NCBI GenBank assembly: GCA_030611415.1
Contig: JAUWPW010000010.1
Span: 1 to 33,031, forward strand
DNA length: 33,031 nucleotides
From: Candidatus Bipolaricaulota bacterium
GTDB taxonomy: Bacteria; Bipolaricaulota; Bipolaricaulia; UBA7950; UBA9294
Direction: 5' to 3'
Below, in pieces: positions 3,110-18,924 of this stretch. A program made the translations under genes and the position numbers. The stretch's first letter is position 1; each line of letters begins with the position of its first letter. Under the pieces are notes generated by a model. It saw nothing but the letters and a program-made list of their open reading frames with translations, was not told the origin of the DNA and made no database searches.

Positions 3110-4456
3110 ATGATTGAATCGGAAGAAAGGGCAAAATTAGTAGCGGATCACATTTACGGCACCTGGAGAGCGCAGAGAGGATGGAAAAAACCGCTATTCA
3201 TAACAAGGGCTGAAGGTGTATATCTCTATGACGATAAGGATAAACCCTATCTTGATTTCTCATCCCAGTTGATGTGTTCGAACCTCGGTCATGGTAACAA
3301 GGCAATAATCAATGCCATAATCGCCCAAGCGAGGAAATTACCATATATAGGTCCTGGATTTGCGTGTGAAGCGAAGGCAAGGGCAGTTGAGGCTTTACTC
3401 GATGTGATGCCTGAAGGTCTAAATAGGTTCTTCTTCTCCACCTCTGGGACTGAGGCAAACGAGGCTGCGACAAAGATGCTCAGGCAGTATATGGCGCCTA
3501 AGTATAAGATAATCTCACGTTACCGTTCATACCACGGCGCTACGGCCGCGGGCATTTCATTAACCGGAGATCCCAGACGTTGGTATGCAGAGAGGGCAAG
3601 GTGTACGATACCCGGGATAGTCTTTGCCCCAGATCCACATTGCTACAGATGCCCATTGGAAGTAGAATACCCTAATTGCAGTCTGCAGTGCGTTGAATAC
3701 ATAGACTACATGATCAAAGAAGAGGGGAATGTGGCTGCGGTCTTTGTGGAGCCCGTTGTTGGAACAAACGGCAAGATAGTTCCACCTCCGGAATACTATC
3801 CTCGGTTAAGGAAAATCTGTGATGATAATGGGGTGTTGCTTGTTGCAGATGAAGTGATGAGCGGCTGGTATCGCACGGGACCGACATGGGCTCTCGACAA
3901 TTGGGCCACTAAGCCAGATATCTTAACCACGGCAAAGGGCTGCACAGGGGCGTATATCCCCGCTGGAATTACCGCAACGACCGAAGAGATCGCGGATTTC
4001 TTCGAGGATGAGATTATGTGTCATGGACACACTTATTCGATGCATCCGCTTGTCTTAGCAGCCATTCCGGCGGCCATAGAAGAGTACAGAAGACTTACAG
4101 CAACAGGTCTGCCGCAAAGAGTGAGCAAGCATATAGAAAAGAGGCTTCACGAACTGATGGATCGGCATGTATGCATCGGCGATGTAAGGGGCATTGGGCA
4201 TTTTTGGGCTGTCGAAATTGTCAAGAATAGAGAAACGAGGGAACCATTCAATACAAAAGCTGATAAATTTGCCGATGGGCAGACCATGACGGATAAGATC
4301 GCAAGCGATGCACTAACACGTGGATTATATATCCACAATTGGTACGACCACTTCACTGTGGCACCTCCGTTAATCATTACAGAGGAGGAGCTTGATAAAG
4401 GTATGAGGATCTTCGATGAGGTGTTGAAGACGGCAGACAGAGAAGTGGAGGACTGA
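3110..4456 (+). CDS. Class III PLP aminotransferase (omega-amino acid / taurine type)
   Basis: The protein has 448 residues, normal for class III (subgroup II) aminotransferases. It shows SGTEANEAA near residue 112 (cofactor phosphate site), VADEVMSGWYRTG with Asp247 for the pyridine nitrogen, and Lys276 in AKGCTG as the Schiff-base lysine. A Cys-rich segment (HCYRCPLEVEYPNC) near residue 181 resembles that of taurine/beta-alanine-pyruvate aminotransferases. The enzyme should move an amino group from an omega-amino compound to an oxo acid, giving a semialdehyde. The next gene is a semialdehyde dehydrogenase, which fits. SD aaaggag lies 10 bp upstream. Arg is mostly AGA/AGG and Ile often ATA, unlike the flanking genes. 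The exact amino donor is an inference. Confidence 0.85.
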   Translation: MIESEERAKLVADHIYGTWRAQRGWKKPLFITRAEGVYLYDDKDKPYLDFSSQLMCSNLGHGNKAIINAIIAQARKLPYIGPGFACEAKARAVEALLDVMPEGLNRFFFSTSGTEANEAATKMLRQYMAPKYKIISRYRSYHGATAAGISLTGDPRRWYAERARCTIPGIVFAPDPHCYRCPLEVEYPNCSLQCVEYIDYMIKEEGNVAAVFVEPVVGTNGKIVPPPEYYPRLRKICDDNGVLLVADEVMSGWYRTGPTWALDNWATKPDILTTAKGCTGAYIPAGITATTEEIADFFEDEIMCHGHTYSMHPLVLAAIPAAIEEYRRLTATGLPQRVSKHIEKRLHELMDRHVCIGDVRGIGHFWAVEIVKNRETREPFNTKADKFADGQTMTDKIASDALTRGLYIHNWYDHFTVAPPLIITEEELDKGMRIFDEVLKTADREVED

Positions 4457-4525
4457 TACGAACGGGCGAGAGAAAAACCATGTCTGGAGCACGAGGAACC
4501 ACATAAACAAAGGAGTGTATACGAT

Positions 4526-6016
4526 ATGGCAATCCTAGAGGATCCGATAAAAGAGGTACTGGAACTTGAGAACTATATCAATGGAGAATGGGTCAAGTCC
4601 GACTCAGATCAATTTTCCGATGTTGTGAACCCAGCCACTGGCAAGACCATAGCAAGAACCCCCATGTCGACCAGAAAGGAAGTGAATGCAGCCATAGAAG
4701 CGGCTAAAGACTCCTTCCCTGATTGGAGAAGGACCACCCCGCTCGCCAGGGTAAGGTGTCTGTTCAGATTGAAAGAGCTGTTGGAAGAGAATTTTGAGGA
4801 GCTGAGCAGAGTCCAAACGATAGAGCATGGAAAGACGATCGATGAATCGAGAGGGGAGACAAGACGCGGTATTGAAATGGTTGAAGTTGCTACTGGGATC
4901 CCTTCATTAATGATGGGATACAACTTAGAGGATATCGCAACGGGCATAGATGAATATGTCATCTATCAGCCTCTGGGTGTCTGTTGCCACATCGCCCCTT
5001 ACAACTTTCCATTCATGGTACCACTTTGGTTTGCGCCTTTCGCTGTCGCTACTGGAAATACCATTGTCATAAAGCCATCGCCCAGGGATCCCATAAGCCA
5101 AGTAAAACTTGCTGAACTAGTGGATGAGGCTGGCTTTCCACCGGGTGTGTGGAACGTAGTTCATGGACATAAAGATGTAGTGTCGGTTCTACTGGAGCAC
5201 CCGGACATTGAAGCGGTAACTTTTGTTGGCAGCACAAAGATAGGAAGAGACATCATTTACAAGAAATGTGGTGAAACCGGCAAGAGGGCCATTGCCCAGT
5301 GTAGTGCCAAGAACTACATGGTAGTAATGCCAGACTGTAATGTAGGGAGAACCATTCCAGCGTTGATGACATCGTTCTTTGGTAACACAGGGCAAAGATG
5401 CTTGGCAGGTGGCAATCTTGTCATTGTCGGCGATAGCAAGTTCTATGAGGAATTTCTGGACGCGGTTGTTGATACGACATCTAGGATAAGGATTGGGTAT
5501 GGACTTGATGAAGCGACACAAATGGGTCCAATGCAGTCAATTGATGGCAAGGAGAGGGTCCTAGCGTATATAGAAAAAGGTATAGAGGAAGGAGCAAACC
5601 TCAGGCTTGATGGCAGGCAGTTCAGTGTTAGAGGAGATTACCCTGATAGGTATTTCCTTGGCCCAACTATTCTCGAGGGTGTTGCAACGGATATGAAGGT
5701 GGCCAAAGACGAGATCTTCGGGCCCCTGATGAGTGTTATGAGAGCGAAGGACCTTAATGAAGCGATAGAAATGGCAAATGGTAGCGACCTTGGCAATGCG
5801 CACGCTATTTTTACTTCAAGCGGTAAGGATGCCAGAGAGTTTCAGTACAGAGTCCAGAGTGGCAATGTTGGCATAAACATTGGAATAGTAGCTCCTATGG
5901 CATTTTTCCCGTTTGGTGGGATGAAAGATTCTTTCTTTGGGGTCTTGCATGGACAAGGGAGAGATGTGATCCGATTCTTCACCGAAAGCAAGGTTGTAAT
6001 TCAGAGGTGGTTGTGA
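4526..6016 (+). CDS. CoA-acylating semialdehyde dehydrogenase (MMSDH-like)
   Basis: The protein has 496 residues of the aldehyde dehydrogenase superfamily. The catalytic Cys is C292 in NTGQRCLAG. The position of the usual general-base Glu is Ala257 (AQCSAKN), and the surrounding AKNYMVVMPD and C-terminal SFFGVLHGQG match methylmalonate-semialdehyde dehydrogenases. These lack that Glu and release the product as a CoA thioester. With the aminotransferase upstream, the likely sequence is amino acid to semialdehyde to acyl-CoA (for example beta-alanine to malonate semialdehyde to acetyl-CoA). Sulfoacetaldehyde or succinate semialdehyde cannot be excluded. SD aaaggag precedes the ATG. The stop codon directly abuts the GTG of the next gene. 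AGR-rich codon use is shared with the operon. Confidence 0.85.
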   Translation: MAILEDPIKEVLELENYINGEWVKSDSDQFSDVVNPATGKTIARTPMSTRKEVNAAIEAAKDSFPDWRRTTPLARVRCLFRLKELLEENFEELSRVQTIEHGKTIDESRGETRRGIEMVEVATGIPSLMMGYNLEDIATGIDEYVIYQPLGVCCHIAPYNFPFMVPLWFAPFAVATGNTIVIKPSPRDPISQVKLAELVDEAGFPPGVWNVVHGHKDVVSVLLEHPDIEAVTFVGSTKIGRDIIYKKCGETGKRAIAQCSAKNYMVVMPDCNVGRTIPALMTSFFGNTGQRCLAGGNLVIVGDSKFYEEFLDAVVDTTSRIRIGYGLDEATQMGPMQSIDGKERVLAYIEKGIEEGANLRLDGRQFSVRGDYPDRYFLGPTILEGVATDMKVAKDEIFGPLMSVMRAKDLNEAIEMANGSDLGNAHAIFTSSGKDAREFQYRVQSGNVGINIGIVAPMAFFPFGGMKDSFFGVLHGQGRDVIRFFTESKVVIQRWL

Positions 6017-6463
6017 GTGGAAATAAACACAGCATCTGAAGCTATTAGTTTCTCACAAGAGCTTGAGGATGAGGGGGCGCAATTCTATCAGGATCTAGCC
6101 CGAAGGTATACTGAAGGGAAAGAGATATTCTTGTCCTTTGCCAAGGAGAATGCTAGCAACGTAGTACAAGTAAGAAGAGCCTATTACGGAGTAATCAGTG
6201 ATGCGATCGAAGCCTGTTTTTCCTTTGGAGGCATAGACACGGACGATTATTCGATTGACACTAGATTGCCTAAGGATATAAGTTACTCTGATGCCTTAAG
6301 GGCAGCTGTAGCGATAGAAGAGAAAACGGTGAGCTTCTATTCAGAGGCAGGCGAAGTTTCGAAATCCTTAATGGCAGATGTGCCCAGGGCTTTTGGAATA
6401 ATAGTTAAGAAAAGAGATAAACGCATTAATAGATTGAGGACATTACTTAAGGAAGGCAAATAG
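6017..6463 (+). CDS. Ferritin/rubrerythrin-like helical protein with eroded iron site
   Basis: The protein has 148 residues, begins with GTG immediately after the dehydrogenase stop, and so is translationally coupled. Two repeats of the rubrerythrin-like helix pattern are visible: ELEDEGAQFY (15-24) and AIEEKTVSFY (99-108), each followed by a second helix. In canonical members those second helices carry E-x-x-H ligand pairs. Here they read ENASN (44-48) and RDKRIN (133-138), so both His and one Glu are replaced. The fold is probably kept, while a normal di-iron centre is unlikely. A structural or carrier role beside the dehydrogenase is conceivable, but no function can be assigned. It shares the AT-richer, AGR-rich composition of the operon. 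Confidence 0.6.
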   Translation: MEINTASEAISFSQELEDEGAQFYQDLARRYTEGKEIFLSFAKENASNVVQVRRAYYGVISDAIEACFSFGGIDTDDYSIDTRLPKDISYSDALRAAVAIEEKTVSFYSEAGEVSKSLMADVPRAFGIIVKKRDKRINRLRTLLKEGK

Positions 6464-6657
6464 TGGCTAAGGTAATCTCAACTCGCTCCGTTCATTGTGC
6501 AAAAAGACATGTTAGTGTCTTTGTTACCGAGTGGAATGATGGGCACCTTACAGTTAAATGCGGTCTTTCGAAATACTGCGGTGATAGTTGCCCATATCTG
6601 AAGGATCCCGATTACAAGAGTGAATTTGGAAGAACACCTAAGTATGAAGCAATCTAA
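6463..6657 (+). CDS. 64-aa Cys/His-rich protein of unknown function
   Basis: A GTG overlaps the previous stop by one base (tagtg), so translation is coupled. The product is small and polar, with Cys12, Cys33, Cys39 and Cys43 plus His11, His16 and His28. The C-terminal half has the pattern C-x5-C-x3-C-P, which could bind zinc or a small Fe-S centre. The first part (STRSVHCAKRHVSVFV) looks like two beta strands around the first Cys. I do not recognise the family. It closes the four-gene aminotransferase operon; the following membrane-protein gene has its own RBS after a 56-bp gap and a different codon preference. Confidence 0.65.
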   Translation: MAKVISTRSVHCAKRHVSVFVTEWNDGHLTVKCGLSKYCGDSCPYLKDPDYKSEFGRTPKYEAI

Positions 6658-6713: not shown

Positions 6714-7739
6714 ATGGAGAAATTCTTGCTAGAAAAAATAGACGAGTGGGTACACAGGGGCCTAATCTCTCCCGAACAAGCAGACTCGCTTAGGCAAAAC
6801 GAAACAGGACCTGAGGATATCCCGCGAGCTCACCGCGTGAAAACGGATGAAATCCTTGTTTATCTGGGGAGCCTCATCATCTTTCTGGCAATAGCCTTCT
6901 TGGTGGGTCTGAACTGGGAACCATTGGGGAGCACGGCTAGGATACTCTCGGTGGTGCTTCCTACAGTTTGCATGCTTGCGTTGGGTCAATGGCTGCGTGG
7001 TTCAACAAGCGCACGGCTGCAAAGAGGGGCACAAGCCTTGTGGCTAGGGGGCTGTCTGGTGAGTGGGGTTGCTTTCGGTGTAATCGTGTATGAACTAGCT
7101 CTCATCGATTGCTCAAAGCTTCACGAAATAGGACCCAGTCATCTGCTGTTCGTAATAAGCTGTCTGTTGGCAACTTGCCTAGCTGGGGCTGCCTTTATCT
7201 TGCTTAATACAGTCACTCAGAGTATCGTCTTCCACCTGTGTGGTAGTGCCACGTTGCTTATATTTGTCGGGTGGCTGGGCTACCAGCTCGTGTCTTTCTC
7301 CTCCTTCTATGGGAATTTAGTGTTTCTTGGGCTTGGCCTGGCAATCGCTGGGTTATGGCTGGCACTCTCAGAATGGCTACTATCAAGGGAAAGGAAGGAT
7401 TTAATACGGGTATCTCGCATGTTCGGAGCCCTGACCGTGTTAGGATTTACCCTGGTCCTAGTTATGCAAGAATATGGGACGCTGTGGCAGGAAGTAGTGA
7501 TGGCCAGCATAGCGTTCTTGGCCGATCTTTCCTTTACTATTGCCAGCGTGAGACGACAGTCGCAAACATTCTTGTACAGTGGCGCGGCCGGACTTCTTGT
7601 TCTGATAACCTATCTTACTGTCAAGCATTCTACGGGTAGAATTGCAATGCCCATTGCCCTTCTGATTATTGGGGCACTGTTTATCGGGTTGGGATTGGGA
7701 ACGAAGCAACTGATAAAACGTGTACGTAAGTCCGGATAG
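6714..7739 (+). CDS. DUF2157-like predicted membrane protein
   Basis: This 341-residue protein has a soluble N-terminus (about 1-45) with the pattern EKIDEWVHRGLISPEQADSL, typical of the DUF2157 family, followed by roughly nine to ten hydrophobic helices through to residue 335 and a basic tail (KQLIKRVRKSG). No catalytic motif is visible. Members are found across bacteria as uncharacterised inner-membrane proteins. SD ggggaagg sits just before the ATG. A short GC-rich inverted repeat lies upstream near 6679-6695. Codon use (CGN for Arg) is like the bulk of the window rather than the preceding operon, so it probably is not part of it. It converges with the Crp/Fnr gene. Confidence 0.75.
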   Translation: MEKFLLEKIDEWVHRGLISPEQADSLRQNETGPEDIPRAHRVKTDEILVYLGSLIIFLAIAFLVGLNWEPLGSTARILSVVLPTVCMLALGQWLRGSTSARLQRGAQALWLGGCLVSGVAFGVIVYELALIDCSKLHEIGPSHLLFVISCLLATCLAGAAFILLNTVTQSIVFHLCGSATLLIFVGWLGYQLVSFSSFYGNLVFLGLGLAIAGLWLALSEWLLSRERKDLIRVSRMFGALTVLGFTLVLVMQEYGTLWQEVVMASIAFLADLSFTIASVRRQSQTFLYSGAAGLLVLITYLTVKHSTGRIAMPIALLIIGALFIGLGLGTKQLIKRVRKSG

Positions 7740-8666: not shown

Positions 8667-10231
<1,565 letters not shown>

Positions 10232-17820: not shown

Positions 17821-18924
17821 ATGCAAATGAAAAAATGGTATGCGATTCAGACCTATGCTGGTTCTGAACTAAAGGTAAAAGAAGACCTGAACGAGCGAGT
17901 TGAGAATCGCAACCTAGAAAGGAACTTTGAGGAATTCCACGAAAATGGTGTAGTGACCTTCTTTCTTGTTCCAGTTGAGGAGGTGATTACCTCGCGTAGC
18001 CGACGGGGAGGGGGCTTTGAGTATCGGATCCCTTACGAGTACGATCTAGTGGCTGAGCCAAACGAGCGAATTCAGCGAGGAAACGTAATTGCTCGCAAAG
18101 CTCCACGGCATATGGAGTGTGATGCGCGGGTGAGTGCGGTAGAGACATTGCAACGGGTAATTGTTGAGATGACCAATCGTAACGAACAAGAGTACCTTGT
18201 TCCGATGGACAAGCGGATCCGTCGAGATATCCGAGTGGGGGAGAAGATCAGAAACGGTGTTCCTTTGACATCAGATAAGGATGAACGGTTTATCGTTGCT
18301 AACAAGGGTGCGATCGTTTTGCGGGATAAGGTGAGAAGAACAACTTTTGAGTATCCTGACGGGAAAGAGAAGACTAGGCTGATCCCCGAGAAATGCATAG
18401 TAAAGCTGCGACAGGGGACACGACTTAGTCAGGGTGATCTGGTTGAGAAGAAAGACCAAATCATCAGTCGAGCTTCTGGGTTATTTAAGGTAAAAGAGTA
18501 TAAGGACAAGCGAGTTGGTGGAATTCAACGTATAGAAAAACGCCGTCTTTTCCCAGGATACGTATTCACCCGGATGAACCTTAACGAGAAAGAGATGATG
18601 GCGCTTATCAACGGGATCAGAGGGGCTGTGCGCTATGTTGGCTCGCGTTTTCACCCAGTCCCAATTGAAGGCCCTGAAATGAAGTTAATCAAGCGAAAGG
18701 CAGGATTGTTAGAGACACCTCTAGCAACTACCTCTGGCGAGCCAAAGATCGAAATCGATTTCAACGTGGGAGAGGTAGTGGAAATTACGGAGGGGCCATT
18801 CGCTGATTTCACGGGTGAAGTCAAAGAGATAGATAAGGAAGCAGAGGAAGTAATCGTAATGGTCAAGATCTTTGGGCGGGAGACACCCGTACATCTTGGA
18901 CTTGAGGGGATCGAAAAATTGTGA
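17821..18924 (+). CDS. nusG: Transcription factor NusG with ~175-aa insertion in the NGN domain
   Basis: NusG binds RNA polymerase and couples it with Rho or the ribosome. The usual length is about 180 residues; this one has 367. The NGN domain starts at residue 4 (KKWYAIQTYAGSELKVKEDL), is interrupted after FFLVPVEEV (about 47-58), and resumes at about 235 (RIEKRRLFPGYVFTRM). The insertion (about 59-234) is rich in basic and beta-strand segments. The KOW domain is at 314-367 (GPFADFTGEV). Thermotoga NusG has a comparable extra domain at the same place. No clear Shine-Dalgarno precedes the ATG, which follows secE by seven bases, so re-initiation is likely; ATG at 17827 is an alternative. Confidence 0.95.
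   Translation: MQMKKWYAIQTYAGSELKVKEDLNERVENRNLERNFEEFHENGVVTFFLVPVEEVITSRSRRGGGFEYRIPYEYDLVAEPNERIQRGNVIARKAPRHMECDARVSAVETLQRVIVEMTNRNEQEYLVPMDKRIRRDIRVGEKIRNGVPLTSDKDERFIVANKGAIVLRDKVRRTTFEYPDGKEKTRLIPEKCIVKLRQGTRLSQGDLVEKKDQIISRASGLFKVKEYKDKRVGGIQRIEKRRLFPGYVFTRMNLNEKEMMALINGIRGAVRYVGSRFHPVPIEGPEMKLIKRKAGLLETPLATTSGEPKIEIDFNVGEVVEITEGPFADFTGEVKEIDKEAEEVIVMVKIFGRETPVHLGLEGIEKL

Follow-up and report, generated by a model that had tools for sequence, protein, structure and literature searches.

Coenzyme A (CoA)-acylating aldehyde dehydrogenases are usually regarded as self-sufficient homo-oligomers. In Pseudomonas sp. AAC, an operon for a beta-alanine transaminase and a CoA-dependent malonate-semialdehyde dehydrogenase (KES23458/KES23460) makes acetyl-CoA (PMC4907197). 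Here, we analyze a locus of a Candidatus Bipolaricaulota bacterium in which two enzymes of this general kind are encoded together with two small proteins; the stretch analyzed (contig JAUWPW010000010.1, 33,031 nucleotides; hereafter the window) comprises one complete contig from a metagenome-assembled bacterial genome of 1.33 Mb. Specifically, four plus-strand genes code for AT (3110..4456), a class-III, pyridoxal phosphate (PLP)-dependent aminotransferase of 448 amino acids (aa); ALDH (4526..6016), a CoA-acylating dehydrogenase of the (methyl)malonate-semialdehyde-dehydrogenase type (MMSDH type) of 496 aa; FER (6017..6463), a ferritin-like four-helix protein of 148 aa in which diiron ligands are lost; and Z64 (6463..6657), a 64-aa Cys/His protein. 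The conserved core of this group is the ALDH–FER pair, not the four-gene set.

The ALDH–FER pair in Bacteria and Archaea

When 84,980 species genomes were searched with ALDH, 80 loci were obtained, and FER was the next gene in nearly all ALDH relatives down to about 50% identity. Pairs were present in Chloroflexota, Thermodesulfobacteriota, Myxococcota, Actinomycetota, Armatimonadota, Bathyarchaeota, Thorarchaeota, and Thermoproteota; the recovered Bacillus ALDH loci had no FER. Because this first set had been gathered via ALDH, we reversed the search and started from FER. Among 343 Dehalococcoidia genomes, the 13 strong FER matches and the 13 high-scoring ALDHs lay in the same genomes and were adjacent, and none of 14 lower-scoring, more distant ALDHs was accompanied by FER. 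About 50 strong FER matches, separated from a weaker class, were found in 340 Desulfobacteria genomes: in 29 of the top 30, ALDH immediately preceded FER in the same orientation, the other match lying at a contig edge, while among the next 20, 17 were within 0.7 kb of ALDH, one had an apparent gap of 0.85 kb, and two were at contig edges. A few ALDHs in draft genomes are fragmented, which inflates some of these gaps. In 349 genomes from the phylum of an archaeal locus (Thermoproteota-level), ALDH was upstream in 18 of 20 FER matches; of the other two, one was at a contig edge, and one was weak and does not belong to the family. Altogether, this ALDH subfamily was located upstream of FER on the same strand at all 78 testable loci (13 + 47 + 18). 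On a 110-row ALDH tree, the presence of FER needs six changes, and ALDH and FER distances are correlated (r 0.86; 0/2000 permutations). Long open frames over FER in loci L184 and L192 were considered as ALDH–FER fusions and rejected, as ALDH lies in a separate open reading frame (ORF).

A preliminary description of the window had treated the four genes as one unit and the two small proteins as possible dedicated partners. The ALDH–FER association proved obligate, but a fixed four-gene unit was not upheld, as Z64 occurs in few lineages and AT is exchangeable. The suggestion of dedicated partners holds on two scales: FER always follows this ALDH on the wide scale, and Z64 always follows FER on the narrow one. 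We also looked for the opposite arrangement, the small genes beside unrelated genes in most relatives, and did not find it.

Comparison of the window with genome G013 from the same genus reveals an exchange of the pair. AT and Z64 of the two genomes are mutually closest (91% and 76% protein identity, respectively), which does not hold for ALDH (72%) and FER (47%). At the DNA level, identity drops from ~90% to ~65–75% near position 4450 and rises again inside Z64, near 6520, delimiting a divergent plus-strand segment (4450..6520) with ALDH, FER, and the start of Z64; the flanking AT and the 3' part of Z64 are 82–94% identical. On the tree, the G013 ALDH groups with the Dehalococcoidia loci L016/L105, and an approximately unbiased (AU) test rejects sisterhood of the G013 and window ALDHs (p 0.004). 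Because of the tree, the AU test, and the divergent block inside conserved flanks, we conclude that ALDH and FER were replaced jointly between sister species. Such a joint swap is in keeping with a matched pair, although it can also result from linkage alone. An alternative is that FER is a passenger gene that shares its history with ALDH and has no role in the ALDH reaction. Operons travel as blocks, and in the comparison of the window with G013, FER has changed more rapidly than ALDH; however, order and adjacency are strictly kept in Bacteria and Archaea, at every testable locus of three independent genome sets, while all other neighbors change. We regard a mere passenger as extremely improbable.

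Fold and lost diiron site of FER

FER of the window reaches no Pfam or NCBIfam family cut-off. It has weak remote sequence matches in the PDB, to 2fzf and TM1526 (1vjx), and some members of its family match Pfam Ferritin_2 or Rubrerythrin, weakly. An AlphaFold model based on a 31-row alignment (predicted local distance difference test score (pLDDT) 92.4) contains four long helices (residues 6–30, 32–57, 90–117, and 121–146) and resembles TM1526 (1vjx) with a template modeling (TM) score of 0.78, a Foldseek probability of 1.00, and an E value of 0.011, as befits a four-helix ferritin-like fold. To compare the metal ligands, 105 FER members were aligned with two diiron paralogs; four of the six diiron ligands are replaced. 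The glutamates of helices A and C are retained (E17 in 101/105 and E101 in 93/105), and the ExxH motifs are replaced mostly by Ser/Ala/Asn...Asn in helix B (N45/N48) and mostly by Arg/His...Arg/His in helix D (R133/R136). None of 88 FER sequences has two ExxH motifs. In the control class of weaker FER matches from Desulfobacteria, both motifs are present in 20/20 sequences and ALDH occurs within the fetched locus in 0/20. These paralogs (L235–L254) represent a widespread Desulfobacteria ferritin-like family of ~157 aa with two ExxH motifs that is homologous to FER. Weak Desulfobacteria matches (up to about 76 bits) were accordingly rejected as FER members and assigned to this ordinary diiron family.

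Because the fold matches but the diiron ligands do not, FER is ferritin-like in fold only: judged from the alignment and the model, the diiron site is lost and the predicted fold is kept. This bears on the idea of an antioxidant or iron-protein role for FER, in which it would shield the catalytic cysteine of ALDH, similar to rubrerythrin-like proteins in anaerobes. The ferritin-like fold and the weak Ferritin_2/Rubrerythrin matches of some members speak for such a role, but the replaced ligands and the lack of any FER with both ExxH motifs, unlike in the paralogs, make it very unlikely. Because the metal site is lost while the fold and the strict linkage are kept, the explanation that we favor for FER is that of an accessory subunit dedicated to ALDH and without a catalytic function. 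It would descend from a diiron rubrerythrin-like protein in which Asn and Arg/His have taken the place of the iron site. Three ALDH positions distinguish FER-linked from other ALDHs, i.e., D106 (100% vs 12%), T282 (92% vs 0%), and P373 (90% vs 13%), and are candidate contact positions for FER.

Gene borders, origin, and neighbors of the pair

AT and ALDH are separated by 69 bp, the GTG start of FER abuts the TGA stop of ALDH (6016/6017), and Z64, which also starts with GTG, overlaps FER by 1 bp in the junction TAGTG; the tight packing from the second gene on was thus described correctly, coordinates included. Shine-Dalgarno-like sequences lie upstream of the gene starts, and for FER and Z64, the GTG starts agree with the N-termini of homologs. 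Because FER and Z64 have homologs conserved at the protein level with matching starts, they are genuine genes, and all four genes are real. Promoter and terminator scans gave only chance-level matches.

Codon usage was compared with that of 190 ORFs, each 150 aa or longer, on 256 kb of sequence from this genome. AGA/AGG codons make up 0.76, 0.93, and 0.82 of the Arg codons in AT, ALDH, and FER, respectively, against 0.30 ± 0.18 in the genome (98th–100th percentile) and 0–0.47 in the genes neighboring the four-gene group, and ATA makes up 0.33, 0.38, and 0.58 of the Ile codons, against 0.18 ± 0.10 (94th–100th percentile). The reported heavy use of these codons, unlike in adjacent genes, is therefore confirmed for AT, ALDH, and FER but not for Z64, which has AGA/AGG in two of three Arg codons and ATA in neither of two Ile codons, too few to judge. 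The overall synonymous-codon likelihood is ordinary (33rd–99th percentile), and the G+C content of AT and ALDH is unremarkable, while that of FER and Z64 is low (42%). Dehalococcoidia homologs show the same Arg codon bias.

Z64 was detected in ten genomes, namely the window, G013, and 8 of 343 Dehalococcoidia, and is located directly after FER in all ten; of 100 genomes from the window's phylum, two carry the gene. The close relatives of ALDH, AT, and Z64 are from Dehalococcoidia. Together with the odd Arg and Ile codons, this distribution supports the earlier proposal that the four genes were probably acquired. The ALDH–FER pairs of G008, G009, G012, G013, and the window, all from one bacterial family, occupy at least four separate places in the ALDH tree, suggesting repeated acquisition. 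A DUF2157 membrane-protein gene follows Z64 (6714–7739) and is reduced to a remnant in G013 (L005, 8580–8831); because of this reduction, we consider the locus to be in flux within the genus. The flanking CRP gene was without a match in both G014 and G015.

Five residues of Z64 (C12, H16, C33, C39, and C43) are invariant in the ten-sequence alignment, and it matches no Pfam family. Possibly, Z64 is a small metal-binding adaptor. A distant Z64 match in G017 (E 0.007) lies in a polymerase/ruvC region without ALDH and was dropped.

The other neighbors of the pair vary. The order ALDH-FER-Z64-AT is found in L016/L110, L105, and L106, with ATs 70–74% identical to that of the window; other loci adjoin class-III aminotransferases of several unrelated subfamilies, an iron alcohol dehydrogenase (L017, L104), a flavin adenine dinucleotide (FAD)-dependent oxidase with a CCG protein (L018, L020, L024, L107–L109), or methylmalonyl-CoA mutase (L022). 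Because aminotransferase, iron alcohol dehydrogenase, and FAD oxidase interchange, the source of the semialdehyde varies while ALDH–FER is constant. This variety of semialdehyde-producing neighbors would be expected if FER were a scaffold that docks ALDH to the producing enzyme and so channels the unstable semialdehyde, with Z64 as a partner-specific clamp. However, the archaeal loci L029, L030, and L033 keep FER without any such enzyme adjoining ALDH, and Z64 occurs in aminotransferase, iron alcohol dehydrogenase, and FAD oxidase contexts alike and, hence, is not partner-specific; we consider this scaffold unlikely.

In the Dehalococcoidia loci L015, L017, and L104, the ALDH–FER cassette directly follows tuf-nusG-rplK, and in L017/L104 it precedes rplA-rplJ-rplL-like genes, i.e., it lies within a ribosomal-protein cluster. 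Corrinoid or MttB-type methyltransferase-like genes, judged by eye, lie near ALDH–FER in L012, L026, and L107, which suggests a link to methylated-amine metabolism. Elsewhere in the window, there is a complete 16S ribosomal RNA (rRNA) gene on the minus strand (8667–10231; Rfam RF00177, 1484.7 bits), and the ORFs listed there are artefacts; 23S and 5S rRNA had no match in the window. A gene at 17821–18924 codes for a 367-aa NusG-like protein, roughly double the normal length, which apparently carries a large insertion in its interior, like Thermotoga NusG.

Proposed reaction and relation to known systems

AT matches Pfam Aminotran_3 (PF00202; E 4e-80), which assigns it to class III, and its TAKG PLP-lysine motif aligns with that of 6jix. 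Its nearest solved relative in the PDB search is a taurine:2-oxoglutarate aminotransferase (6JIX, 272 bits; next best 229). With 382.9 bits against PRK06062, the best NCBIfam model, AT remains under the cut-off of 472 and outside the taurine/PRK06062 subfamily; because of this, transfer of the substrate from 6JIX is weak. G010 has an AT 62% identical to that of the window at a contig edge. ALDH scores 523.7 bits against TIGR01722, the CoA-acylating methylmalonate-semialdehyde dehydrogenases (cut-off 448.5), and its closest PDB structure is 1T90 from B. subtilis (478 bits). The catalytic Cys292, the oxyanion Asn160, Arg114, and Arg291 are invariant across 149 compared ALDHs, and the general-base Glu site is occupied by Q258 (Leu in 1T90). 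The Arg pair of the MMSDH family has a role in the substrate site. From these residues and the family assignment, we infer an NAD/CoA-dependent (decarboxylating) oxidation of (methyl)malonate semialdehyde; the conserved arginines and MMSDH membership favor an anionic beta-semialdehyde as substrate.

The main rival to such a substrate is taurine-derived sulfoacetaldehyde, i.e., a sulfonate catabolism in which AT would convert taurine to sulfoacetaldehyde and ALDH would convert sulfoacetaldehyde to sulfoacetyl-CoA. The match to 6JIX would agree with this, and CoA-acylating dehydrogenases for sulfoacetaldehyde and sulfopropionaldehyde are known (PMC11489063). Nevertheless, the ALDH is a member of the MMSDH subfamily, and no sulfonate activity of this subfamily was encountered in the literature found; no sulfonate lyase or transporter was identified within the window, and AT falls short of the PRK06062 cut-off. 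On balance, a sulfonate pathway appears improbable.

In the conversion that we propose instead, AT would take the amino group from a short omega-amino acid (beta-alanine and 3-aminoisobutyrate being the likeliest) and yield an anionic beta-semialdehyde, which the MMSDH-type ALDH would oxidize with NAD+ and CoA to acetyl- or propionyl-CoA with loss of CO2. FER probably binds the ALDH oligomer and may control its stability, CoA access, or semialdehyde hand-over, and Z64 would be an additional small Cys/His adaptor, probably metal-binding, in few lineages. A conversion of omega-amino acids to acyl-CoA had already been suggested for this locus, and this prediction fits the AT and ALDH families as well as the characterized AT/MMSDH operon (PMC4907197). 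Several observations weigh against this proposal. Adjacency indicates a functional tie, not a physical complex, and linkage alone could also yield correlated distances and the block swap. A natural ALDH–FER fusion was not found. Because the wider family includes ALDHs that function in its absence, FER is dispensable for the chemistry as such. Moreover, the structure model of Z64 is of low confidence (pLDDT 68) and had no match in a fold search, and with a taurine enzyme as the nearest solved AT the choice of substrate is not fixed. Taking these points into account, we still lean toward a horizontally acquired, catabolic omega-amino acid to acyl-CoA cassette with FER as a non-catalytic ALDH subunit. 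More tentatively, and with slightly less than even confidence, we suggest that FER defines a new family of metal-free ferritin-like proteins that are obligate subunits of a CoA-acylating ALDH subfamily and occur in Bacteria and Archaea. In this family, an ancient diiron site would have turned into a carboxylate–arginine core, and the helix bundle would have come to serve in building or gating a dehydrogenase complex, with Z64 as a second, lineage-restricted subunit.

Because our literature searches of open-licence papers found no paper on the ALDH–FER pair or describing FER, the pair appears undescribed so far, and a pathway of known kind appears to have a new partner protein. A gene that follows one acylating ALDH subfamily at every testable locus in Bacteria and Archaea points to an overlooked subunit, which would be a ferritin-like bundle shorn of its metal site and reused. 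FER would otherwise be annotated as hypothetical or as a ferritin, and the ALDH–FER pair marks numerous predicted semialdehyde pathways that lack annotation in Dehalococcoidia, sulfate reducers, and archaea.

As in the Pseudomonas sp. AAC operon, a class-III aminotransferase lies beside an MMSDH-type ALDH in the window, for a predicted route from omega-amino acid via semialdehyde to acyl-CoA; unlike in that two-gene operon, AT is of a different subfamily and FER and Z64 are added. Compared with 6JIX from Bifidobacterium kashiwanohense, AT is nearest by sequence among solved structures but under the PRK06062 cut-off and paired with an acylating ALDH. ALDH shares with the B. subtilis 1T90/TIGR01722 enzymes a score over the family cut-off, the catalytic Cys, the Asn, the two substrate-site Arg, and the lack of the general-base Glu, but forms its own subfamily with the D106/T282/P373 signature and an obligate FER gene. 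Finally, FER has the four-helix fold and E17 and E101 in common with the ferritin-like/rubrerythrin family, including TM1526 (1VJX) and the Desulfobacteria diiron paralogs, and differs from it in lacking ExxH in helices B and D and in having ALDH as its obligate neighbor.

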